From contig SXUI01000036.1 of the NCBI GenBank assembly GCA_005790605.1, positions 1 through 35,308 of the forward strand: DNA of 35,308 nt. Reading direction: 5' to 3'. Position 1 is the stretch's first letter. Each line of letters starts with the position of its first letter. Below are positions 25,543-35,308 of this stretch, piece after piece. The notes under the pieces are model-generated. The model was not told where the DNA came from. It worked only from the letters and a program-made list of their open reading frames with translations, and did no database searches. The DNA is from Planctomycetia bacterium (GTDB taxonomy: Bacteria > Planctomycetota > Phycisphaerae > Phycisphaerales > SM1A02). A program made the position numbers and the translations under genes.

Positions 25543-28500
25543 ATGTTCTTCCGCTTCTTCATCGACCGACCAATCTTCGCGACTGTCATCGCGCTTGTAA
25601 TGACGCTCTCGGGCATCATCTGCGCGGTCGTTCTGCCGATCGCGCAGTACCCAAACATTGTTCCACCAACCGTGCAAGTCTCCGCGACTTACAACGGTGC
25701 GGACGCAGCCACGGTTGCGCAGGTGGTCACGCTTCCTCTCGAACAACAGATCAATGGCGTCGAAGGCATGTTGTACATGTCGTCGACTTCGACGAGTACT
25801 GGTGTTTCGACCATCACTGTGACCTTCGAGATTGGCTACGACCTCGACATTGCCGCTGTCGATGTGCTCACGCGCGTCAATCAGGCGATGCCGCAACTTC
25901 CCGATGCCGTGCAACGCGTCGGCGTCAACATCGCGAAGCAGTCGAGCAACATGACGGCGGTCATCAGTCTCTACTCGCCAAAGGGAACCTACGACAGCTC
26001 GTTTCTTTCGAACTACGCGAACATCACGGTCGAGCCCGTGATTTCGCGCGTCGACGGCGTCGGCAATACGACGATCTTCGGTCTTGAGCAGTACGCGATG
26101 CGTGTATGGCTCGACCCCGACAAGCTCTCACAACTCAATCTCACACCGACGGATGTGCTCGCGGCTGTCCGCGCGCAGAACAACCAAGCATCGCTAGGCG
26201 CAGTTGGCGCTGAGCCTTCGGTTGGAAAGCCTGCGACCACCCTCTCCATTCAAACCAAGGGCCGACTCACGAAGACGGACGAGTTTGAAGACATCATCAT
26301 TCGAAGTGAAAGTAACGGCGCGATCGTTCGACTGAAGGACATCGGTCGCGTTGACCTCGGGAGCTACCAATACTCGAGTTCCTCCTCCCTCAACGCCGGC
26401 CCGACCGCGACCGTTGCGCTTTACCAACTTCCGACCGCCAACGCGTTCGATGTCGTGGAGAAGACCGAGCAGGCGATGGAGCGACTTCGCTCGCAGTTCC
26501 CACCTGATCTTGAATACAAGATCGCCTACGACACAACGAAGTTCGTGAAAGCATCGCTCGACGACCTCGTCAAGACGCTTATCGAAGCAGGCATTCTGGT
26601 GCTGCTCACGATCTTTGTGTTCTTGCAGTCGTTCCGCGCGACAATCATCCCCATGATCGCAATCCCGGTGTCCATCGTCGGCACCTTTGCGATGATGGCG
26701 GTGTTTGGATTCTCCATCAACACCCTGACACTGCTCGGGCTGGTCTTGGCCATCGGTCTTGTCGTCGACGACTCGATCATCGTCGTGGAAAATGTGTACC
26801 GACAACTCGAGAGTGGCATCGAGGACCCCAAGGTCGCTGCGCAGAAAGCCATGGAGCAAGTCGGTGGTCCGATTGTGGCGACCAGCGCGGTCTTACTCGC
26901 GGTGTTCATCCCCGCGGCGCTCATGCCTGGCATCACAGGTCAGCTCTACAACCAGTTTGCGCTCACGATCGCGTTCTCCGTCGCGTTCAGTGCGGTGAAT
27001 TCGCTCACACTTTCGCCGGCGCTCTGCGGCGTGTTCCTCCGCAAAGAGCACCCCACGAAGTTTCCTCCGTTCGTGCTTTTCAATCGCGGCTTTGAATGGG
27101 TCTCAACCCACTACGCGCTCTTCGTTCGATTCTTGTGCAAGCACTGGTACGGCATGGTGGCCGTCTTCATGATCGGGTGCTTTGGCGTCGTGCACTACTT
27201 GCGTGCTACGCCAACCGCCTTCATTCCAAATGAGGATCAAGGCTACTACTTCGTCATTTTCCAATTGCCACCCGCGTCCAACCTGCTTCGCACACAGGAA
27301 GTGTCGAACCAACTGCAAGCGATTGCTCGAGAAGATCCAGCCGTCACGGATGTCGTGCAGATCAGTGGTTTGAACTTCCTCACGAGCGCGCAGCAGACCA
27401 ACTCTGGACTGCTCATTTGCGTCTTGAAGGATTGGGATGAGCGTGATGTGCGCACAGAAAATCTCCGCGCGATCATCATGCGTGCCTATCCGAAGATGCA
27501 CGCGATCGCTGATGCGATCGTGATGCCGGTTCCGCCGCCTCCGATTCCTGGCCTTGGAAGCGTCGGCGGATGGCAGTTGCAACTCGAAGCGCTCGAGGGG
27601 CAGAGCTTCGATGAACTCGCGGAAGTGAGCGAAGCGTTCCTCGCCAGTGCGATGAAACAACCGGAGTTGTCTGGGCTGACGAGCCCGTTCTCTGACTCCG
27701 TGCCGATGATTCATCTCGAGATCGATCGCACGCGCGTGTACGCGCTCGGCCTTGAGATCGATGATGTGTTCAACGCGCTCGGGCAGAACTTCGGGCAGAC
27801 CTTCATCAACAACTACAACGACTTCGGTCAGGTCTACAATGTGATGGTGCAAGCGCAGGCCACCTCGCGCATGCAGATCGCCGAGATCATGGACCTGCGC
27901 GTGCGCAACTCAAAGGGCGAAGAGGTCCCGTTCGCATCCTTCGCTCGGCCGTCCATCAAGACAGGCACCGACAACGCGACGCACTACAACCTCTACAACA
28001 CGGTGCAGGTCAACGGACAGACCGCGCCGGGCTTTGGTTCCGGAGATTCCATCCGCGCGATCGACACGGTCGCGAAGGCCTCGCTCCCCGAGGGCTTTTC
28101 CTATGAGTGGACAGGAACGACTTTCCAAGAGATCGAAGCAGGGAGCCTCGCGCCACTTATCTTTGGCATGGCCATCGTCGCGATCTTCCTCTTACTCGCG
28201 GCACTCTATGAGAGTTGGCTGCTGCCTTTCAATGTCTTGCTTGCCGTGAGTTTCGCCGTGCTCGGCGCGCTTCTCGCTCTCCACATCAGCGGACGCGCAC
28301 TCGATGTCTATGCGCAAATCGGCTTGGTGATGCTCGTGGGACTCGCAGCGAAGAATGCGATCCTCATCGTCGAGTTTGCGAAAGAGCGCGCGGACACAGG
28401 CGAGTCCGTCATGGACGCCGCGAGCGAAGCGTCGAGATTGCGATTGCGACCGATCATGATGACGAGCTTTGCATTCATCCTCGGAATCCTCCCCCTCGTT

Positions 28501-28668
28501 GTCGCGACCGGAGCGGGTGCACAAGCTCGGCATTCGATCGGCATCACAGTGCTCGGCGGCATGCTGGGTTCGACCATCATGGATCAGCTTGTCGTCCCAA
28601 GCTTTTTCTACATGTTCTATTCGCTGCGACGCAAGTTCGGGGTCGGCGTTCCTGAGTCGCGTGCTTGA
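25543..28668 (+). CDS. RND efflux pump permease (HAE1 family, AcrB-like)
   Basis: This is a proton-driven inner-membrane exporter of hydrophobic or amphiphilic compounds, 1041 residues, full length for the family. It begins with MFFRFFIDRPIFATVIA (TM1) and has two large periplasmic loops (about 35-335 and 565-870) and twelve predicted membrane helices. The proton relay is present: D409 and D410 in GLVVDDSIIVVEN (TM4) and the Lys in VGLAAKNAILIVEFA (TM10). The order outer-membrane factor, adaptor, pump with short gaps shows one operon. No regulator gene adjoins it, so induction cannot be predicted. Its stop codon lies at the edge of the first copy of the two-hairpin repeat described below. Confidence 0.95.
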   Translation: MFFRFFIDRPIFATVIALVMTLSGIICAVVLPIAQYPNIVPPTVQVSATYNGADAATVAQVVTLPLEQQINGVEGMLYMSSTSTSTGVSTITVTFEIGYDLDIAAVDVLTRVNQAMPQLPDAVQRVGVNIAKQSSNMTAVISLYSPKGTYDSSFLSNYANITVEPVISRVDGVGNTTIFGLEQYAMRVWLDPDKLSQLNLTPTDVLAAVRAQNNQASLGAVGAEPSVGKPATTLSIQTKGRLTKTDEFEDIIIRSESNGAIVRLKDIGRVDLGSYQYSSSSSLNAGPTATVALYQLPTANAFDVVEKTEQAMERLRSQFPPDLEYKIAYDTTKFVKASLDDLVKTLIEAGILVLLTIFVFLQSFRATIIPMIAIPVSIVGTFAMMAVFGFSINTLTLLGLVLAIGLVVDDSIIVVENVYRQLESGIEDPKVAAQKAMEQVGGPIVATSAVLLAVFIPAALMPGITGQLYNQFALTIAFSVAFSAVNSLTLSPALCGVFLRKEHPTKFPPFVLFNRGFEWVSTHYALFVRFLCKHWYGMVAVFMIGCFGVVHYLRATPTAFIPNEDQGYYFVIFQLPPASNLLRTQEVSNQLQAIAREDPAVTDVVQISGLNFLTSAQQTNSGLLICVLKDWDERDVRTENLRAIIMRAYPKMHAIADAIVMPVPPPPIPGLGSVGGWQLQLEALEGQSFDELAEVSEAFLASAMKQPELSGLTSPFSDSVPMIHLEIDRTRVYALGLEIDDVFNALGQNFGQTFINNYNDFGQVYNVMVQAQATSRMQIAEIMDLRVRNSKGEEVPFASFARPSIKTGTDNATHYNLYNTVQVNGQTAPGFGSGDSIRAIDTVAKASLPEGFSYEWTGTTFQEIEAGSLAPLIFGMAIVAIFLLLAALYESWLLPFNVLLAVSFAVLGALLALHISGRALDVYAQIGLVMLVGLAAKNAILIVEFAKERADTGESVMDAASEASRLRLRPIMMTSFAFILGILPLVVATGAGAQARHSIGITVLGGMLGSTIMDQLVVPSFFYMFYSLRRKFGVGVPESRA

Positions 28669-28704
28669 GCGGGAGCACCGCGGCGAGTGAATCGCCTGCG
28701 GCGC
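28669..28704 (-). repeat. Two-hairpin repeat, copy 1 (short form)
   Basis: Only hairpin A is kept: inner stem GGCGA (28682-28686) with TCGCC (28692-28696) around the loop GTGAA (TTCAC on the - strand), plus an outer stem (28675-28681 with 28698-28704) and a bulged T. On the - strand it is followed directly by GCTCCCGCTCAAG, like the end of copy 4. It begins right after the stop codon of the RND pump gene. Confidence 0.7.
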
Positions 28705-28730
28705 AATCTCGACAGAGATGAACGAACGGA

Positions 28731-28833
28731 GCTCGTTCTCCGGCGATGCCGATTCACTCGGCCCGCCGGAGTCCAGAGCGAGTGCAGGTTTTTGCGGCGC
28801 TGCGCCGCAAGAAACCTGCACGAGCGCTCAAAC
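28731..28833 (+). repeat. Two-hairpin repeat, copy 2
   Basis: Hairpin A: outer stem 28738-28745 with 28764-28771, inner stem GCCGA (28748-28752) with TCGGC (28758-28762), loop TTCAC. Linker TCCAGAGCGAG. Hairpin B: 18 paired bases (28782-28799 with 28803-28821, one bulged G at 28811) around the loop CTG. It ends in CGAGCGCTCAAAC. Only 20 bases separate it from the start codon of the M24 peptidase gene. Confidence 0.85.
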
Positions 28834-28841
28834 GGATGCGA

Positions 28842-28847
28842 TACCCT
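28842..28847 (+). promoter_or_regulatory. Possible -10-like box before the M24 peptidase gene
   Basis: TACCCT (28842-28847) is followed by six bases and the ATG at 28854. It fits a TAnnnT pattern but is a weak -10 box; there is no Shine-Dalgarno. Confidence 0.3.
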
Positions 28848-28853
28848 CCCCGC

Positions 28854-30080
28854 ATGAGTGAATCGCTGTCTATCACGCTTGGTGAATACGCCGCTCGCCG
28901 CACGAAGTTGTTGAAGCAACTCAAGGACTGCGTCGGACTGGTCTTTGCTGGTGACGCGGACGCGAGCATTCACGGCGAGTTCCGCGCGCATGCGAACTTC
29001 GAGTATCTCACGGGCATCACCAATGAAGCGGGCGCGATCCTCCTGCTTGATCCACAGAACCCTATCGAGGATCGAAGAGTCCTCCTCTTCCTAAAGCCAC
29101 TCAATCCAGAGTTGGAGAAGTGGGATGGATTTCGGATGGAAATTTCTTCCGCGCTCAAGGCGCAGTACGGCATCAAGACCGTCATGCGTACGACAGCGTT
29201 TGCGCGATTCCTTCTCGAAGCGACCAAGCGCTCGAAGCGATTCGCTTTGCTTCACTCGCTCGCGCCACACACGGCGCCCGTCTCGCCCGATCTCGATGTC
29301 TTCCGAAAGTGTGCCGAACGCATCCCGGGCGCGAGTATCGTCGATCAGTCGCAGCTGCTCGCCGTGATGCGAGCAGCGAAGTCAAAGGCGGAAATCGCGC
29401 TGATGCAGCGCGCGGCAGATGTCACAGCGGCTGGCTATAGCGCGGTGCTCAAGCAACTGAAGCCCGGCATGACGGAATTCGATGTGCAGGAAGTCATCGA
29501 GCATGGATATCGATCCAACGGATCTCGACGCGCTGCGTATCACACGATTGCGGGCGGCGGGTTCAACGCAACTGTGCTGCATTACCACGGGAATCGCGCA
29601 CCGCTCGCAAGCGGCGACCTCATCCTCATCGACTCCGGCGCCGACTTCAACGGGTACGCGTGCGATGTCACACGCACCTTCCCGGTGAACGGGAAGTTCA
29701 CGAAGCGCCAACGCGAGATCTACTCCATCGTGCTCGACGCGCAACTCGCGGCCATCGCCGCAACCAAGGCTGGAGTGACTTTCGCGAGTATTGACAAGGC
29801 CGCGCGCGATGTCATCACGAAAGCGGGATACGCCGATGCCTTCTTCCATGGCACGGGCCATCACCTCGGACTTGAGGTGCATGACATCACACCAGATGGC
29901 GTCATTCCCGAAAACGCCGTAGTCACGATCGAGCCGGGGATCTATCTCCCGAGCGAGAACTTCGGCGTTCGCATTGAAGACGACATTCTCGTCACCAAGA
30001 AATCTGGCGGAACGAATCTGACTGCCGCGATTCCAAAGTCAATCGACGCGATTGAGCGCGCGATGTTTGGGCGCTCGTGA
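28854..30080 (+). CDS. pepP: M24-family aminopeptidase P (Xaa-Pro aminopeptidase)
   Basis: This metallopeptidase removes the N-terminal residue before proline. The 408-residue protein has an N-terminal creatinase-like domain (AMP_N type, about 1-150, with FRAHANFEYLTGITNEAGAILLL) and a C-terminal pita-bread domain. The dinuclear metal site is complete: two Asp in LIDSGADFNGYACDVTRTF, His in FFHGTGHHLGLEVHD, Glu in VTIEPGIYL and Glu in GVRIEDDILVT. The ATG at 28854 gives a normal family start; the open frame upstream to 28746 only reads through repeat copy 2. The last codons and the stop (30066-30080) coincide with the end of repeat copy 3, so the repeat forms part of the coding sequence. Confidence 0.93.
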   Translation: MSESLSITLGEYAARRTKLLKQLKDCVGLVFAGDADASIHGEFRAHANFEYLTGITNEAGAILLLDPQNPIEDRRVLLFLKPLNPELEKWDGFRMEISSALKAQYGIKTVMRTTAFARFLLEATKRSKRFALLHSLAPHTAPVSPDLDVFRKCAERIPGASIVDQSQLLAVMRAAKSKAEIALMQRAADVTAAGYSAVLKQLKPGMTEFDVQEVIEHGYRSNGSRRAAYHTIAGGGFNATVLHYHGNRAPLASGDLILIDSGADFNGYACDVTRTFPVNGKFTKRQREIYSIVLDAQLAAIAATKAGVTFASIDKAARDVITKAGYADAFFHGTGHHLGLEVHDITPDGVIPENAVVTIEPGIYLPSENFGVRIEDDILVTKKSGGTNLTAAIPKSIDAIERAMFGRS

Positions 30081-30180
30081 CAGGTTTCTTGCCGCTGCAA
30101 GGCCAGCGGCAAAAACAAACGCTGCACTCGCTTTGGACTCCGGCGGGCCGAGTGAATCGGCACCGCCGGAGATCGAGCTC
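30066..30180 (-). repeat. Two-hairpin repeat, copy 3
   Basis: Reads on the - strand. Hairpin A at 30138-30171: outer 9-bp stem (30138-30146 with 30163-30171), inner stem GCCGA/TCGGC, loop GTGAA (TTCAC on -), bulged A at 30162. Linker on - strand: TCCAAAGCGAG. Hairpin B: TTGCCGCTG (30089-30097) with CAGCGGCAA (30104-30112), extended by shorter pairings. Its terminal ACGAGCGCCCAAAC overlaps the last codons of the M24 peptidase. Confidence 0.85.
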
Positions 30181-30203
30181 AGTCCGTCCGAAGACATTGG
30201 AGT

Positions 30204-30297
30204 TGCGCCGATCGCGATTCACTCGCGGCGGCGCATGCCAAAGGGAGCGATGGAATTTGTCCGCGCTTCGCGGCAGAATTCCGCGCTCCCGCTCAAC
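30204..30297 (+). repeat. Two-hairpin repeat, copy 4
   Basis: Hairpin A at 30204-30235: TGCGCCG/CGGCGCA outside, CGCGA/TCGCG inside, loop TTCAC. Linker TGCCAAAGGGAG. Hairpin B at 30243-30290: GGGAGCG/CGCTCCC, GGAATT/AATTCC and CCGCG/CGCGG, loop CTT. It ends in CGCTCAAC. The stem bases differ from copies 2, 3 and 6, yet pairing is kept. Confidence 0.85.
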
Positions 30298-30357
30298 TAC
30301 GCACTCGCTTTGGACTCCGGCGGGCCGAGTGAATCGGCACCGCCGGAGATCGAGCTC
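30243..30357 (-). repeat. Two-hairpin repeat, copy 5, sharing hairpin B with copy 4
   Basis: Hairpin A at 30315-30348 is the same sequence as in copy 3 (30124-30182 and 30301-30359 appear identical over 59 bp). Read on the - strand, it runs through CCAAAGCGAG into the same hairpin B (30243-30290) that copy 4 uses, so the two copies face each other. Confidence 0.8.
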
Positions 30358-30394
30358 AGGCCGTCGGATGAGCGCGAACAAAAGACGCCGGTAT

Positions 30395-30507
30395 TGCGCC
30401 TGTCCCGATTCACTCGGGCAGGCGCACACCAAAGCGAGCGAGGCGACGCGCTTACAGCACCGATCACGCGTTTGACCCGACGCGGCGCAAGTCGCGAGCG
30501 CTCAAAC
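30395..30507 (+). repeat. Two-hairpin repeat, copy 6 (first unit of a tandem pair)
   Basis: Hairpin A: TGCGCCTG (30395-30402) with CAGGCGCA (30419-30426), bulged T, inner CCCGA/TCGGG, loop TTCAC. Linker CACCAAAGCGAG. Hairpin B is longer and less regular, built on GCGAC/GTCGC and GCGC/GCGC pairings around 30443-30495. It ends in CGAGCGCTCAAAC. Confidence 0.85.
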
Positions 30508-30523
30508 CTCGCGACATCGAACT

Positions 30524-30636
30524 TGCGCCTGTCCCGATTCACTCGGGCAGGCGCATACCAAAGCGAGCGAGGCGACGCGCTTACAGCACCGATCACGCGT
30601 TTGACCCGACGCGGCGCAAGTCGCGAGCGCTCACAC
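30524..30636 (+). repeat. Two-hairpin repeat, copy 7 (second unit of a tandem pair)
   Basis: A direct copy of unit 6, 129 bp further on: 30394-30504 and 30523-30633 agree at 110 of 111 positions (C at 30427 versus T at 30556). It ends at the stop codon (30637-30639) of the - strand membrane protein gene. Between the M24 gene and this point (30081-30636) there is no gene; the whole 556-bp stretch is made of repeat copies 3 to 7 and short spacers. Confidence 0.85.
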
Positions 30637-31722
30637 TCATGCCTCAAACACACGCGGGAAAAATGTGTGCAGCGTGAGCAGAACCAGGGACCACACAACC
30701 GGAAGCGCGCTCAGGCAGATGGCAGCGATGGCGATCGCCTTTCCGGTGCTCATTCGAAGTCGGGCGAGCAACTCACACATCACAATGACCCACATCACGA
30801 GCGCGAACTTGAATGCGACGGCACCTTGCATGCCCCAAGCGTCGATCACCAACGCGGCGACGGGATTCACTTCGACGCCGTCGATTTCCAGGATCTTCCA
30901 AGTGAGCATGATGTCAAGGCTTGAGAAGAAGATGAACCAGACATACGCGTTCTGAAAACGCATCTCTGGACTCCGCGCGAACGACAAGACATCGCGCGGC
31001 AACGCTGCGCTACATGCAGGGCAATGCTGCGCACGATGCGCAGCGTGTGGATCAAGCGCGAATCCGCAGACGGTGCATCGACCAAACTTCTCTCGCTTTC
31101 GCCGGCGTAGCGCAAGCGGAAACGCGACGACGATCCATGCGACGCTCGTCCACACCAAGACATCCGCGATCAACGGCGCAATAATCGGTCGAAGCGGCAC
31201 AAGCAACGCTCGGTCATCAACGAACCCAAACTGGACCGCGCACCGAAACCCGGTCGGCGCCGCGCCCCTCGCACCGTCCACCGGCTGCCACGCCTCGCTC
31301 GCAAACGCACGGAAGGGCCAGCCGGAAAGCGTGGTTTGAATCTGCGTGAAATCGTCGTAGTCGGCGACATCGGGTGCTGTGATCACGGAGCCGGGCGGGT
31401 AGTGAAAGCGCGCAGACGCGAGACCCACGCGCATAAGCATGCCCGTCGGCCAACGGGACGCTTCAGGTTCGATGCGTGTCGATCGAAACGCTGTGTACAC
31501 ATCACTACACACACCTTGACGGACTTCGATTCGCGCGCATCCCTCACCTGAGTAACTGCTCACGCTCTGCCAAGTCACCATCGACGAGCTTGAAGGGTCG
31601 ATGTTGCGCAGCGCGAGCAGCATCGGGAGCCCCCATGCTGTGAACAGCGACATCGCAACACCTGCAATGGCGAACGGCGCAACTCGGCGCGGTTGTTGCA
31701 GCCTCGAAATCCTTCGGGACAT
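30637..31722 (-). CDS. Membrane protein with zinc ribbon and DUF5658-like C-terminus
   Basis: Function unknown. The 361-residue protein has an N-terminal membrane segment (VAPFAIAGVAMSLFTAWGLPMLLAL), a periplasmic part to about 185, a second segment (DVLVWTSVAWIVVAFPLAL), a cytoplasmic zinc ribbon (CTVCGFALDP ... CPACSAALP at about 215-245), and a C-terminal set of helices beginning YVWFIFFSSLDIMLTWKILE with NPVAALVI, which recalls DUF5658. This layout is frequent in Phycisphaerae and rare elsewhere. The ATG at 31722 (MSRRISRL) is preferred; it has GATAGT six bases upstream and no Shine-Dalgarno. Longer in-frame starts reach 31773. Its stop codon touches the repeat block. Confidence 0.75.
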   Translation of the reverse strand: MSRRISRLQQPRRVAPFAIAGVAMSLFTAWGLPMLLALRNIDPSSSSMVTWQSVSSYSGEGCARIEVRQGVCSDVYTAFRSTRIEPEASRWPTGMLMRVGLASARFHYPPGSVITAPDVADYDDFTQIQTTLSGWPFRAFASEAWQPVDGARGAAPTGFRCAVQFGFVDDRALLVPLRPIIAPLIADVLVWTSVAWIVVAFPLALRRRKREKFGRCTVCGFALDPHAAHRAQHCPACSAALPRDVLSFARSPEMRFQNAYVWFIFFSSLDIMLTWKILEIDGVEVNPVAALVIDAWGMQGAVAFKFALVMWVIVMCELLARLRMSTGKAIAIAAICLSALPVVWSLVLLTLHTFFPRVFEA

Positions 31723-31855
31723 AGTGGCACTATCGCGTGGACATGTGCCACTCCGCAAGTCTGCTTTATGCATTGCCAGATGCCTGCCGCCTTCGGGCTC
31801 GGGAGCGAACCTGCTTGCAGTGCTGCTTGCACCTCTTGACCACGATCGGGGACTC

Positions 31856-31883
31856 TTAAATAGGGTGTCGCGCGCGTTACACT
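31856..31883 (+). promoter_or_regulatory. Candidate promoter of the secreted Cys-rich protein gene
   Basis: TTAAAT (31856-31861), a 16-nt spacer and TACACT (31878-31883) could form a promoter with a start near 31890 and a leader of about 60 nt. TACACT is the same -10 hexamer as in the tracrRNA promoter. The -35 box is poor. Confidence 0.45.
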
Positions 31884-31951
31884 AGCAGTCACGGTAGTTC
31901 AGTCAAGTTCCACGCGGCAAGCGGAACCAGAAATGAGAAGGAGAGTTGCTG

Positions 31952-33115
31952 ATGGGTAGGATCACGAACGGGTGGAGTCGGAGGGGATTGCGGCGACCAC
32001 GATCGTTGGCTGCTTCACGGACGAAGGTGATGTTCGCGCTCGGCGCGTTCCTGGCGTGGATCACGCCCTTGCACGCAACCGCGATCGCCGCGACGGGTGA
32101 ACGCAGTGTCTCAGATGTTCGCATTTCGCTCGGTGAGGAAGGTCGCCGCTGGACACTCGTGCCAACCATGTTGGAAGGAAGCGTCGAGTCGTTTCTCGCA
32201 CTGCGTCAGGGACTCGCTTGCGGAGAGAATCTCACAGCCGTGTGGTATCGCAGAGTCGCAATTGCCGACGGCACACAAGCGTGGGAGACAAAGGGCTTCG
32301 TCGAGCAAGATCAGTCGAAAGTAGTCCGTGCGGTGAAGGAGTCGCTCGCGCTGTCCAATACGACGGACGCATCGTGGCCGGTTGCCATCGCGCCCGTTCC
32401 AGCCCCCGACGCAGAGCGAATGACGCGGGGGATCCTCGAATCCGATCCACTTGCACCCCTCATCACCCAACTCGAGAATCCAAGGCCGCTGGTGGAAATG
32501 CTCGAAGCTGCGGGCTGGAAGGCCGCATGGATCGATCCGCTCGAAGAGATTGGGATGGCGACGGCTGACCCAAGCGACGTCGAGTGCTCGGCGACTGTCG
32601 TGCTCGACGCAATGGCAAGCGCGATTGAAACGTCGGGCGACGAGAGTCTCGCGACGGCACTGGATTCCATAGCGCAATCCATCATGCGCTGTCGCCCTTG
32701 GTGTATCCCCGCGACTGTGGAGACGGCTGGTCCGTGGGGACCATGGAACTGTGGTTCGGCGGCGTATGTGCTCGTTGACTGTGATCGCCAACCGGTCGCG
32801 GGGTGCGTTCATCACTGCAATTATGTGAAGCGAATTCAACGGACGCAGTTCCGATCCGTCGGCCGAATTCATATTGACTGCACCACGACAATCACGATGG
32901 AGTCCCGAACCGAGTACTACGAGAGCAACGGCGTATGCCAACGGAGTGGTTTCATGCCGCCAGGATGCCAAGGAGCACTCTTCTCCAACCCATGCCCAAC
33001 AGGCGCACCATGCAATCCGCAGTTCAACGGATCCAACTCCGGCATTTGCTCGAGCGATGCCCTCGCGTGTCCCCCGACACCTTCTCAGGAAACTGAGACA
33101 ACGGACTGGCAGTAA
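31952..33115 (+). CDS. Secreted cysteine-rich hypothetical protein
   Basis: Not recognised. The 387-residue product has a basic N-terminus and a signal peptide (VMFALGAFLAWITPLHATAIA, cleavage near residue 48). The middle (about 50-245) is mixed alpha/beta with few Cys. From about 248 there are many Cys (CRPWC, WNCGS, VDCDRQPVAGCVHHC, DCTT, VCQRSG, PGCQG, NPCPTGAPC, ICSSDALAC), which suggests a disulfide-stabilised extracellular domain. The ATG at 31952 has AAGGAGAG at a good distance; an upstream TTG at 31946 is less likely. The next gene starts three bases after the stop, so both should be translated from one mRNA. Confidence 0.78.
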   Translation: MGRITNGWSRRGLRRPRSLAASRTKVMFALGAFLAWITPLHATAIAATGERSVSDVRISLGEEGRRWTLVPTMLEGSVESFLALRQGLACGENLTAVWYRRVAIADGTQAWETKGFVEQDQSKVVRAVKESLALSNTTDASWPVAIAPVPAPDAERMTRGILESDPLAPLITQLENPRPLVEMLEAAGWKAAWIDPLEEIGMATADPSDVECSATVVLDAMASAIETSGDESLATALDSIAQSIMRCRPWCIPATVETAGPWGPWNCGSAAYVLVDCDRQPVAGCVHHCNYVKRIQRTQFRSVGRIHIDCTTTITMESRTEYYESNGVCQRSGFMPPGCQGALFSNPCPTGAPCNPQFNGSNSGICSSDALACPPTPSQETETTDWQ

Positions 33116-33118
33116 ACG

Positions 33119-33994
33119 GTGCGCGGGTTGTCCCGTCACGGATTCGGACGACGCTCCATTTGGCTCGCCTCGGTGCTTGCGCTCGGTGCGGTATCAAGTT
33201 GGACTACCGCCAGAGTGCAGTCCCTCGTCGGGCGCACTCCCAACGGATCGGCTGGATCGTCGGCGATCGGACACTGGCGCGCGATACCAACGCCGTCGAA
33301 CCTCGAATGGTTTCTCTGGGAAGGCTGGATCTGGGAGATGCGCGAAACGGGTTGGTTTTCTGGAAATCCCATTCGACGGATCGCCCAGTGGCCCGGGAAC
33401 GAAGGGCTCACTCGGAAGCGACCGCCGTACTGGAGTGCTGCATCGAATCCTGAGCAAGACTTTCCACGCGCTGCGATTGGATGGAATGCCTTCTACGAGG
33501 TCGAATTCGGATGGCCGCTGCCTTGCCTCGTGAGTGAGGATGTCGAGTACCCAACTGACCCCAAAGATCCGACCTCTTGGACCTCTGTATCCGTGCTCCA
33601 CGGCGCGCGCTACGAACGCCTGAAGCAGAACCCGATCGCCAATCTCTCATGGATGGCCTTTCCGTGGTTGACCGTGGAGGGAAGCGAGCAAGAATCGGTT
33701 CCGGCTTTCATTGATACGCACACCGAAGATGGCGTCCGGACTCAAACTCCAACCGCGAGTTTTCTGCCGACGCGCGTCGTTTGGCTCGGACTGCTCGCCG
33801 ATTCGCTCATCCACGGCGCGTGCCTTCTCATGCTTTGGTGGTCGATTGTTGGGCTTGGGATAGGCGCGCGATATGGCATCAGGTTCGCACTGCGCAACTC
33901 ATCCCGCAGTCGCGCGCGCCGTGGTGCATGCCGCGCTTGTGGGCACCAACTCGCTGGACTCAAGCGCTGCCCTGAGTGTGGGGCGCCGCGCTAA
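33119..33994 (+). CDS. Membrane protein with C-terminal zinc ribbon, hypothetical
   Basis: Not recognised by function. The 291-residue protein has an N-terminal membrane segment (SIWLASVLALGAVSSW), a periplasmic domain rich in Trp and Pro (about 35-215), a second segment (LLADSLIHGACLLMLWWSIVGLGIGA) and a cytoplasmic basic tail with the zinc ribbon CRACGHQLAGLKRCPECGAPR-like at the very end (four Cys, CxxC...CxxC). This two-helix plus zinc-ribbon plan occurs in many Phycisphaerae proteins. The GTG at 33119 is three bases after the upstream stop; later starts would lose the first membrane helix. It converges on thiC. Confidence 0.72.
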   Translation: MRGLSRHGFGRRSIWLASVLALGAVSSWTTARVQSLVGRTPNGSAGSSAIGHWRAIPTPSNLEWFLWEGWIWEMRETGWFSGNPIRRIAQWPGNEGLTRKRPPYWSAASNPEQDFPRAAIGWNAFYEVEFGWPLPCLVSEDVEYPTDPKDPTSWTSVSVLHGARYERLKQNPIANLSWMAFPWLTVEGSEQESVPAFIDTHTEDGVRTQTPTASFLPTRVVWLGLLADSLIHGACLLMLWWSIVGLGIGARYGIRFALRNSSRSRARRGACRACGHQLAGLKRCPECGAPR

Positions 33995-34041
33995 CCGATT
34001 CGCGTACGCGTGCGCCTCAAACCTCGAGATCACTTCCCGCG

Positions 34042-35308
34042 TCAGATGACGCGGTCATCCTTCGAGATGTTGAAGACGGGTGCGAGATTGACCTGCACGA
34101 GCGTGCCAAGTTTCTCGCCTTGGATCGACTGAGCGGCGTCGGGATCGACGAAGTCAGAGTGACAGGATGCCTTCTGCCCATCCTCGGCACCGATCGCCTT
34201 CTTTGTCTTCGAAGCAAGCTTGTGAATCTCTTCGGGCGAGAGGACACCGCGCTTGGCAAGAATCTCGCGTTGTTCATCCGTCAGCGCAGCGCTCTTGACT
34301 GGCTTGCCGCGCTGATACTCCTCATCCTTGCCACTCGCAAACTCCTGAATCTCCTTCGAGATGCGGACGCTGCACCAATCGTGCCCACACATCGCGCAGA
34401 AGTCCGTATCGACATCGAGGTCTTCGTCGTGATACGCGCGGGCGGTGTCTGGATCGAAACTCAGTTCGAAGTGCTTCTCCCAATTCAGCGCCGCGCGCGC
34501 CTTGGTGAGTTCATCATCGCGGTCGCGCGAGGCTGGAATGCCGAGCGCAACATCCGCGGCATGCGCCGCGATCTTGTAGGCGATGCAACCCTGCTTGACA
34601 TCGTCCTTCTTCGGAAGCCCAAGATGCTCCTTCGGCGTGACATAGCAAAGCATGCTCGCGCCGTGATAGCCCGCCGCGGTCGCGCCGATGCAACTCGTGA
34701 TGTGGTCGTAGCCCGGGAACATGTCGGTCACGAGCGGACCGAGCACATAGAACGGCGCGCCGTGGCAGAGTGTGCGCTGCAACTTCATGTTGTATTCAAT
34801 TTGATCAAACGGGACATGGCCAGGTCCTTCCACCATGACCTGCACACCCATACGCCACGCTCGCTCGGTCAACTCGCCGATCGTCGTGAGTTCTGCAAGT
34901 TGCGCGCGATCGGTCGCATCCGCAAGGCCACCCGGACGAAGACCATCACCAATGGAGAAGGTCACATCGTACCGACGCATGACCTCGCAAATCTTCTCCC
35001 AACCGGTGTACATCGGGTTTTGCTTGTTGTGCACCAACATCCACTTCGCGAGCAGCGCACCACCGCGCGACACGATGCCGATGACGCGCTTCTTGATGAA
35101 GGGCAGATGCTCCTTCAGCACGCCCGCGTGAATCGTGAAGTAATCGACCCCTTGCGCCGCTTGGTGTTCAAGCGTGGCGAGGATGATTTCTTCGTTCAAC
35201 TCTTCTAGTTTTTTCCCGATGATCATCGAGTAGATCGGCACGGTGCCGATGGGAACGGTGGAGTTTCGGCAGAGCGCATCGCGACATTCATCGAGGTTGC
35301 CACCAGTG
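34042..35308 (-). CDS. thiC: Phosphomethylpyrimidine synthase ThiC, 5' end outside the window
   Basis: This radical-SAM enzyme converts aminoimidazole ribotide to HMP-P for thiamine synthesis. The reading frame is open to the right edge, where TGGNLDEC, then [14 protein letters not shown], is clearly ThiC sequence; the start and any upstream TPP riboswitch lie outside. Visible landmarks are [85 protein letters not shown] and the C-terminal cluster motif [10 protein letters not shown] (CxxCxxxxC). About 109 residues follow the last cluster Cys, clearly more than in the usual ThiC; the extension includes [23 protein letters not shown]-like helices and [11 protein letters not shown]. It converges with the upstream membrane protein gene. 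Confidence 0.96.

Follow-up and report, generated by a model that had tools for sequence, protein, structure and literature searches.

Small dispersed repeats of cyanobacteria are tagless, form hairpins and occur in few lineages. Excerpts of a study of repetitive extragenic palindromes (REPs) present inverted REP doublets (REPINs, or bacterial interspersed mosaic elements, BIMEs) as the replicative unit and singlets as its remnants, the repeats being extragenic and showing compensatory changes in their hairpins (PMC3116915). Excerpts of a second study describe GTAG REPs, the termini of which supply stop codons, and a CGTC class that seems to be without a dedicated transposase, and mention untagged REP-like repeats (PMC3733652). 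Here we consider a family of two-hairpin repeats in a Planctomycetia genome (assembly GCA_005790605.1, hereafter G000; 3,034,408 bases in 80 contigs, 99% complete), seven copies of which lie in contig SXUI01000036.1 (C22), the 35,308-nt stretch analysed as a whole and called the window below. An earlier note, made from the letters of the window, had claimed seven TTCAC-loop hairpins whose stems differ while pairing is kept, and this was borne out far beyond chance by word counts and fold z-scores. The family probably consists of small non-autonomous mobile repeats working like REP/REPIN elements. The observations behind this reading are compensatory structure, a near-constant bulge and loop, dispersal, window sites that are empty in relatives, a preference for gene 3′ ends and repeat ends that supply stop codons.

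The loop word CGATTCACTCG occurs exactly 93 times in the 3.03 Mb of the own genome, compared with one occurrence of the reversed control. Ten of these sites were dropped before model building (nine judged chance from missing pairing, one cut by a contig end), leaving 83, and alignment A2 holds 71 rows (57 distinct) after omission of 12 odd copies. The covariance model built from the 71 copies gave at least 130 genome matches at E<=1 and at least 119 at E<=0.001, with 150 of 6,293 first-look candidates scored. Context was counted for 114 copies, as 5 of 119 matches, at E 0.001-0.01, were dropped; 10 further genome matches (E<=0.001) lie outside the examined stretches. The Rfam covariance models gave no match at E<=1 in 28000-31400 of the window, and a single pattern scan of viral contigs gave none. 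Contigs L242, L245, L246 and L248-L250 of the same-genus genome G003 and L040 and L092 of G000 start or end in or beside repeats; because several contigs terminate there, the repeats probably break metagenome-assembled genomes (MAGs), and the copy numbers would be underestimates. At L089:3031-3300, the loop region of a hairpin A seems to contain a further unit, as a nested insertion.

In hairpin A, 8-9 bp make up the lower stem and 5 bp the upper stem, which carries the loop TTCAC; between the two stems a single base of the 5′ strand stays unpaired, a near-constant feature that the earlier note missed. A strict rule for this hairpin holds for 70 of the 93 exact-loop sites, a one-base bulge is the best fit in 82 of the 83 own copies, and at least 7 of the 8 lower pairs are present in 73. 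In A2, 94.7% of cells are paired versus 75.5% after shuffling, both sides have changed at 10 of 14 pairs, and the covariation score is 0.429 versus 0.116 in shuffles, none of 500 of which reached it; when the partner strand was slid, the score was at most 0.078. Because the structure had been read from the own copies, the covariation analysis was repeated on copies of three same-genus genomes, G001, G002 and G003, all of which carry the family. Alignment A6, with 50 copies (46 distinct) found by the model, a way of finding that favours pairing, shows 96.9% paired cells versus 76.7% shuffled, with double changes at 11 of 14 pairs; 46 of its 50 copies were taken from 71 model matches of relatives and four from the 399 kb of large G001 contigs treated below. 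The covariation score of A6 is 0.510 versus 0.152 shuffled and at most 0.100 in slid versions; the measure of further pair types, one of five, was unexceptional (127 of 500 shuffles). Stems vary by genome on one plan, for example TCAACCG/CGGTTGA in G001 and CCGCTGG/CCAGCGG in G003. The bulge base is T in 62 of the 71 own copies of A2; among the 50 copies of relatives it is T in 31 and C in 19, and 38 of these model-found 50 have the loop TTCAC. The loop is shortened in a few G001 copies. Thus, the structure is conserved through compensatory changes, as the earlier note had held. That note had also made its claim depend on a covariance-model search of the genome and on covariation in a larger alignment; the search found more than 100 dispersed copies, and the covariation is significant.

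Palindrome correction can yield paired changes without selection. If template switching of this kind, or gene conversion between copies, had produced the paired changes, no selection would be needed, and the large number of copies, partly identical, together with L081:3385, the only perfect, bulge-free stem among the 83 own copies (omitted from A2), fits such a process. However, correction should erase the bulge, yet 82 of the 83 keep it at the same place, and the loop, linker and end are nearly fixed; hence an origin without selection seems most improbable.

In the whole unit, about 100-115 nt long, a linker of the AAAGCGAG type joins hairpin A to hairpin B, and an end of the GAGCGCTCAA type follows. 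Hairpin B could be parsed in 74 of the 114 matches, and the 64 distinct forms fall, by the rule of the script used, into 34 of type I, 9 short and 15 long of type II, and 6 of type III. In type I and short type II, the majority of forms have a foot AGCG/CGCT, an asymmetric A x GAG internal loop and a variable stem above it; in type III, GGGAGCG pairs with CGCTCCC or a close form, and many long type II forms fold in other ways. The stems of hairpin A combine with several types of hairpin B, mixing more within classes than freely. Neighbouring units stand head-to-head in 29 of 59 cases (binomial p 5e-5), and 27 of these are spaced by 71-92 bp, with modes at 76 and 90. One whole doublet gives a four-armed fold (z -6.7 as DNA, -5.8 as RNA), with TTGAGCGCTCG paired to CGAGCGCTCAA and CTCGCTTT to AAAGCGAG. 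Among 14 doublets with both ends found, 13 measure 214-244 bp and one 327, an end-to-end stem of at least 8 pairs forms in 11, and the second, linker stem forms in all seven doublets that hold both exact linker words. The mutual complementarity of linkers and of ends within the doublet may explain why these are the constant parts. The REPIN-like picture of doublets is qualified by the single units, which make up 19 of 55 clusters, and by the stretches of G001, where neighbours lie mostly on the same strand. In L223, L221 and L235 of G001, the spacer between units is shared and includes ACCGACTCCGTCGGT, or a close form of it, as a third small palindrome.

The inverted ends raise the question of a miniature inverted-repeat transposable element (MITE) moved by a classical DDE transposase that recognizes TTGAGCGCTCG-type termini. 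The doublets do terminate in TTGAGCGCTCG and CGAGCGCTCAA or close variants, but single units are common, and no clear target duplication was seen in the six isolated doublets inspected for one, the borders of which are uncertain. DDE recognition of duplex ends would also leave the kept bulge, the loop and the stem covariation unexplained, so that a MITE of this kind appears improbable.

The repeats avoid coding sequence, as 112 of the 114 copies lie outside called genes at a coding fraction of 85%. In the 48 of 55 clusters with both neighbours called, these are convergent in 27, tandem in 20 and divergent in one, L048, a cluster located past the 3′ end of a tRNA-Leu gene overlooked by the gene caller. 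The background consists of 182 gaps, each 30 bp or longer, from 399 kb of large G001 contigs; 18 of these gaps are convergent and 42 divergent (Fisher p 5e-11 and 3e-4). This comparison is approximate, since it draws on another genome, on stretches that skip known copies and on a home-made gene caller. Clusters at L048:3137-3220 and L086:2941-3013 sit just behind tRNA 3′ ends (tRNA-Leu and tRNA-Gly, respectively); L085 and L181 looked similar, and ARAGORN found no tRNA there. Of the 89 unit ends found, 70 point at stop codons and 16 at starts, and 22 of the 70 stop-facing ends lie within -18 to +12 nt of the stop. The stop TGA is placed inside TTGAGCG in 8 rows (7 distinct ends), and 10 ends are 0-3 nt from a stop; gene stops in or beside TTGAGCG number 30 of 276, with a few expected by chance.

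Such a strong convergent and tandem 3′-end bias, with abutment on stops, would also suit RNA elements, that is, hairpins acting in transcript 3′ ends by protecting mRNA, as barriers to Rho or RNases or as bidirectional terminators, which would have spread by recombination and been retained at gene ends. The earlier note had proposed a check for transcription termination; intrinsic terminators are not enriched in the window block (1 versus 2.2 expected in shuffles, for 28600-30700 only), and the single one overlaps copy 6 in its 5′ arm only. Units are found in either orientation, and placement behind genes is described for known REPs as well, in the excerpts of PMC3733652.

The comparison with relatives bears on both readings. 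In alignments, window site 1 spans 176 bp versus 74, 79 and 82 bp in G001, G002 and G003, and site 2 spans 577 bp versus 18, 26 and 34 bp. The contigs of four named relatives, SIAK01000020 (Baikal-deep-G172), QWPV01000046 (ZH-13MAY13-plancto70), SXUJ01000013 (F1-140-MAGs142) and QWPW01000004 (ZH-13MAY13-plancto74), gave no covariance-model match at E<=0.01 at either window locus. The first three look identical to G001, G002 and G003, because the gap sizes are equal; judged from isolate names, some of the relatives are lake MAGs. Elsewhere, with 4 of 71 model matches above E 0.001 omitted, relatives have 43 clusters, of which 16 share a gap with an own cluster (13 own sites), 4 are anchored in own stretches without an own cluster, and 23 cannot be placed. 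The sharing has a chance probability of 9e-12 against an assumed 55 in 1,300 gaps, a rough figure since stretches were chosen for repeats and regions are clustered. In the shared-gap pairs shown, type, orientation and number of the copies are usually not the same; in L048/L252, one copy looks orthologous, and its differences are paired. Hence certain gaps are favoured or have been colonised more than once. The 16 co-located clusters of 43 could be explained by recent jumping and equally by hotspots or retained function, and this sharing despite differing type, number and orientation speaks for RNA elements, whereas the window sites, both repeat-free in relatives, speak against them. Taken together, a function in RNA seems unlikely to account for the family. 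In the 399 kb of G001 stretches, a weak and biased test as pieces around copies were skipped, only own cluster L079 could be placed, with no copy there; the same stretches hold five strong copies.

Across 101 genomes, with at most 61 candidates scored per genome, 14 match the model at E<=0.01, and at least 15 copies are found only in the four genus members. Outside the genus, G028 has 5 matches, G031 has 6 and eight others have one each. In G028, G031 and G060, of other genera, a similar order of hairpin, AAAGCGAG-like linker, second hairpin and GCGCTCAA-like end is seen, G031 having a loop different from TTCAC. The loop word is present in L164 (G092), and the single matches L161, L163 and L167-L169 look like chance. 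At L165:1501-1532 (G079, another family of the order), a perfect bulge-free hairpin carries the same GATTCACTC loop.

The seven window copies, with hairpin loops at 28684(-), 28750(+), 30149(-), 30215(+), 30326(-), 30406(+) and 30535(+), occupy two gaps, 28665-28833 and 30065-30636. The first separates the gene of an RND efflux pump (25543-28668; ACR_tran) from that of an aminopeptidase P-like protein (28854-30080; Peptidase_M24 and AMP_N), and the second separates the latter gene from a convergent one (30637-31653) without a Pfam match at E<=1e-5. Copy 1 (28665..28704, minus strand; 32.9 bits) is degenerate, with the outer end TTGAGCGGGAGC at 28665-28676 and hairpin A but no linker, and its end contains the TGA (28666-28668) that is the stop codon of the RND pump gene. 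Copy 2 (28737..28833, plus strand; 67.9 bits) is a type I unit with hairpin A at 28738-28771 (bulge T at 28747), linker, hairpin B and the end CGAGCGCTCAAAC at 28821-28833. Copy 3 (30065..30172, minus strand; 73.7 bits), also of type I, has hairpin A at 30138-30171, linker, hairpin B and an end at 30065-30077 that supplies the last codons of the aminopeptidase P-like gene, TTT GGG CGC TCG TGA. Both this gene and the RND pump gene have other 3′ ends in relatives than in the own genome. Copy 4 (30202..30296, plus strand; 61.3 bits), a type III unit with hairpin A at 30203-30236, linker AAAGGGAG, hairpin B and end CTCCCGCTCAA at 30286-30296, forms with copy 3 a head-to-head doublet (30067-30296), the fold of which has just five end-to-end pairs. 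Copy 5 (30303..30349, minus strand; 73.7 bits), consisting of hairpin A at 30315-30348 and a linker, runs tail-to-tail into copy 4. Copy 6 (30393..30507, plus strand; 67.9 bits) is a type II unit with hairpin A at 30394-30427, linker, a long hairpin B and the end CGAGCGCTCAAAC, and copy 7 (30522..30636, plus strand; 66.9 bits) is its tandem near-duplicate, the end of which, CGAGCGCTCACAC, adjoins the stop codon of the convergent gene. As 30394-30507 and 30523-30636 are 98% identical over 114 nt, these two copies are hardly independent cases of covariation.

The earlier note had assigned one shared plan to all seven copies. The core of the plan stands; three of the seven lie on the minus strand, and linker and end are not uniform. 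The linker CCAAAGCGAG is exact in four of the seven, while 28750 has CCAGAGCGAG, 30215 has CCAAAGGGAG and 28684 has none. The terminal CGAGCGCTCAAAC is exact in two of the seven units and one mismatch off in two more, the 30215 unit ends in CTCCCGCTCAAC, and that of 30326 runs into the 30215 unit. Folded as DNA, three window hairpins reach z -3.7 to -6.8 and the block 28669-28833 reaches z -7.4; as RNA, 28728-28836 reaches z -5.6, and 30513-30645 is weaker (z -2.6, 4 of 200 shuffles being equally good). Downstream, at 31654-34041, the window has about 2.7 kb between alignable blocks (31345-34042) versus about 0.4-0.6 kb in L093, L094 and L096, and the open reading frames 32006-33115 and 33215-33994 found there, without a Pfam match at E<=1e-5, are probably accessory genes.

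A RAYT (REP-associated Y1 tyrosine transposase) gene elsewhere in the own genome, which the earlier note had proposed to look for, was not found. G002 carries five RAYT-like paralogs, four of which have 386-411 aa and the nearest NCBIfam model of which is REP_Tyr_transpos. With a profile of four of these proteins, 17 of 101 genomes gave matches at E<=0.001, and in nine of them the match is strong (E below 1e-30); G000, G001 and G003 are not among the 17. In G002, the RAYT-like gene at L189:1315-2825 has near-identical palindromes of 36-38 nt on either side, which are unrelated to the present family and possibly the gene's own inverted ends. As a special case of the mobile-repeat reading, the repeats could have been moved by such a Y1 transposase, since lost from the other three genomes. 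Five paralogs in a repeat-carrying genome favour this, as does the presence of both such proteins and similar repeats in G028 and G060, of another genus; excerpts of PMC6006769 describe class 3 proteins as found mainly in Planctomycetes and flanked by atypical structures, a class for which the G002 proteins are candidates. Opposed to it, the protein was not found in G000, G001 and G003, the genus genomes with most copies, and model matches near the 24 RAYT-like loci are weak (best E 0.028, at L198). Furthermore, G014, G021, G023, G025, G029 and G088 have the protein and no repeat match at E<=0.01, G031 has repeats with no protein found, and the three G002 proteins scanned score 27.6-37.9 bits versus an NCBIfam cut-off of 80. 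Mobilisation by a G002-type enzyme is therefore possible, though doubtful.

Other candidates for a mobilising enzyme were sought in the four genus genomes. TnpB (PF07282) was found in none of the four, and no element carrying a gene was seen. A reverse transcriptase (PF00078) occurs in G001 only, where L293 has an open frame of 1019 codons with this domain. The integron integrase model TIGR02249, the only part of an integron searched for, gave matches below its cut-off in all four, like all 14 controls.

It is proposed that two units standing head to head form a doublet, mostly of 214-244 bp, which could fold into a four-armed form by pairing of ends and linkers, and that single units probably are remnants and arrays duplications. 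A trans-acting enzyme would recognize the hairpin in single-stranded DNA by its loop and bulge, leaving the stem letters to drift as pairs, by analogy with IS608 and E. coli TnpA_REP, where recognition uses an extrahelical base or an irregularity of the stem. Copies would survive where they do least harm, between convergent genes and right after stop codons, and the enzyme may have been lost, be absent from the assemblies or be of a type not recognised in this analysis. In its most specific form, with a four-armed single-stranded doublet read via TTCAC and the fixed bulge, moved in lake planctomycetes by an enzyme other than Y1/RAYT, and with ends shaped to close frames and settle on stops, the proposal is rather unlikely to hold in every part.

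Several observations weigh against mobility of this kind. The A2 copies were chosen by the exact loop word, so that loop constancy in A2 arises by construction; one own copy is bulge-free, and in G002 copies the irregularity at the bulge position is larger than one base. The 16 of 43 shared gaps count here as well. The Pfam family search found no Y1_Tnp in G000, G001 or G003, and the loop word ATTCACTC occurs in none of the 24 RAYT-like loci of G002 and other genera. Y1/RAYT as mobiliser was set aside, the family search, the 101-genome profile and the 24 loci giving no link to the repeats. In windows of 14-15 nt at the hairpin foot of 105 copies, GTAG was found twice (5′) and 0 times (3′) and CGTC twice on each side. 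The tetranucleotide GGAG was found 7 times (5′) and 44 times (3′), the latter belonging to the type I stem. No clear target duplication was seen in the six of 14 isolated doublets for which ends were found, their borders not being fixable on diverged relatives; in their 22-nt flanks, with borders uncertain, the longest common word is at most 6 nt and inconsistent in position.

Since stems swap in pairs while the loop, bulge, linker and ends stay, the parts likely to be recognised can be read from the alignment and are testable in vitro. The family bears on a question left open in the excerpts of PMC3733652, namely how palindromic repeats without a dedicated transposase originate and persist. 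No description of such repeats in Phycisphaerae was among the literature matches listed, nor were they described among the matches listed from PMC6461901, excerpts of which put the median intergenic spacer at 43.5 nt in Nemodlikiaceae, a family of lake Phycisphaerae. On a guess from names, the own genome may belong to that family; if so, intergenic blocks several hundred bases long would be notable and probably tolerated only at 3′ ends.

The earlier note had likened the repeats to REP/RAYT or mobile small repeats; REP-like placement, head-to-head pairing and sites empty in relatives agree with this, whereas membership of the REP/RAYT group does not follow, as there is no GTAG or CGTC tag and no Y1 transposase was found in the own genome. 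As judged from the excerpts of PMC3116915, the family resembles REPINs in its inverted doublets, with narrow spacing and folding as one, its extragenic location and its compensatory changes; however, REPINs consist of REP 16-mers and come with RAYTs, while here each half has a pair of hairpins, and three of the four carrier genomes yielded no RAYT. Excerpts of PMC3733652 allow a similar comparison with tagged REPs, which share short hairpins, head-to-head dimers, convergent or unidirectional placement near 3′ ends and high copy number, and, in the GTAG class, ends that supply stop codons; unlike GTAG and CGTC REPs, the present family has no tag at the hairpin foot and a second hairpin B in each unit. 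A hairpin made irregular by an unpaired base or a mismatch, and the loop, a recognised feature in known systems, recall the ends of IS200/IS605 and the substrates of E. coli TnpA_REP in the excerpts of PMC8266576, although a Y1 gene was not found in three of the four genus genomes nor TnpB in any. In the best reading, the family is untagged and REP/REPIN-like rather than tagged REP, with no RAYT found in most carriers, and by description only it is alike to the untagged REP-like repeats and to the small dispersed repeats of cyanobacteria, being tagless, hairpin-forming and shared by few lineages.

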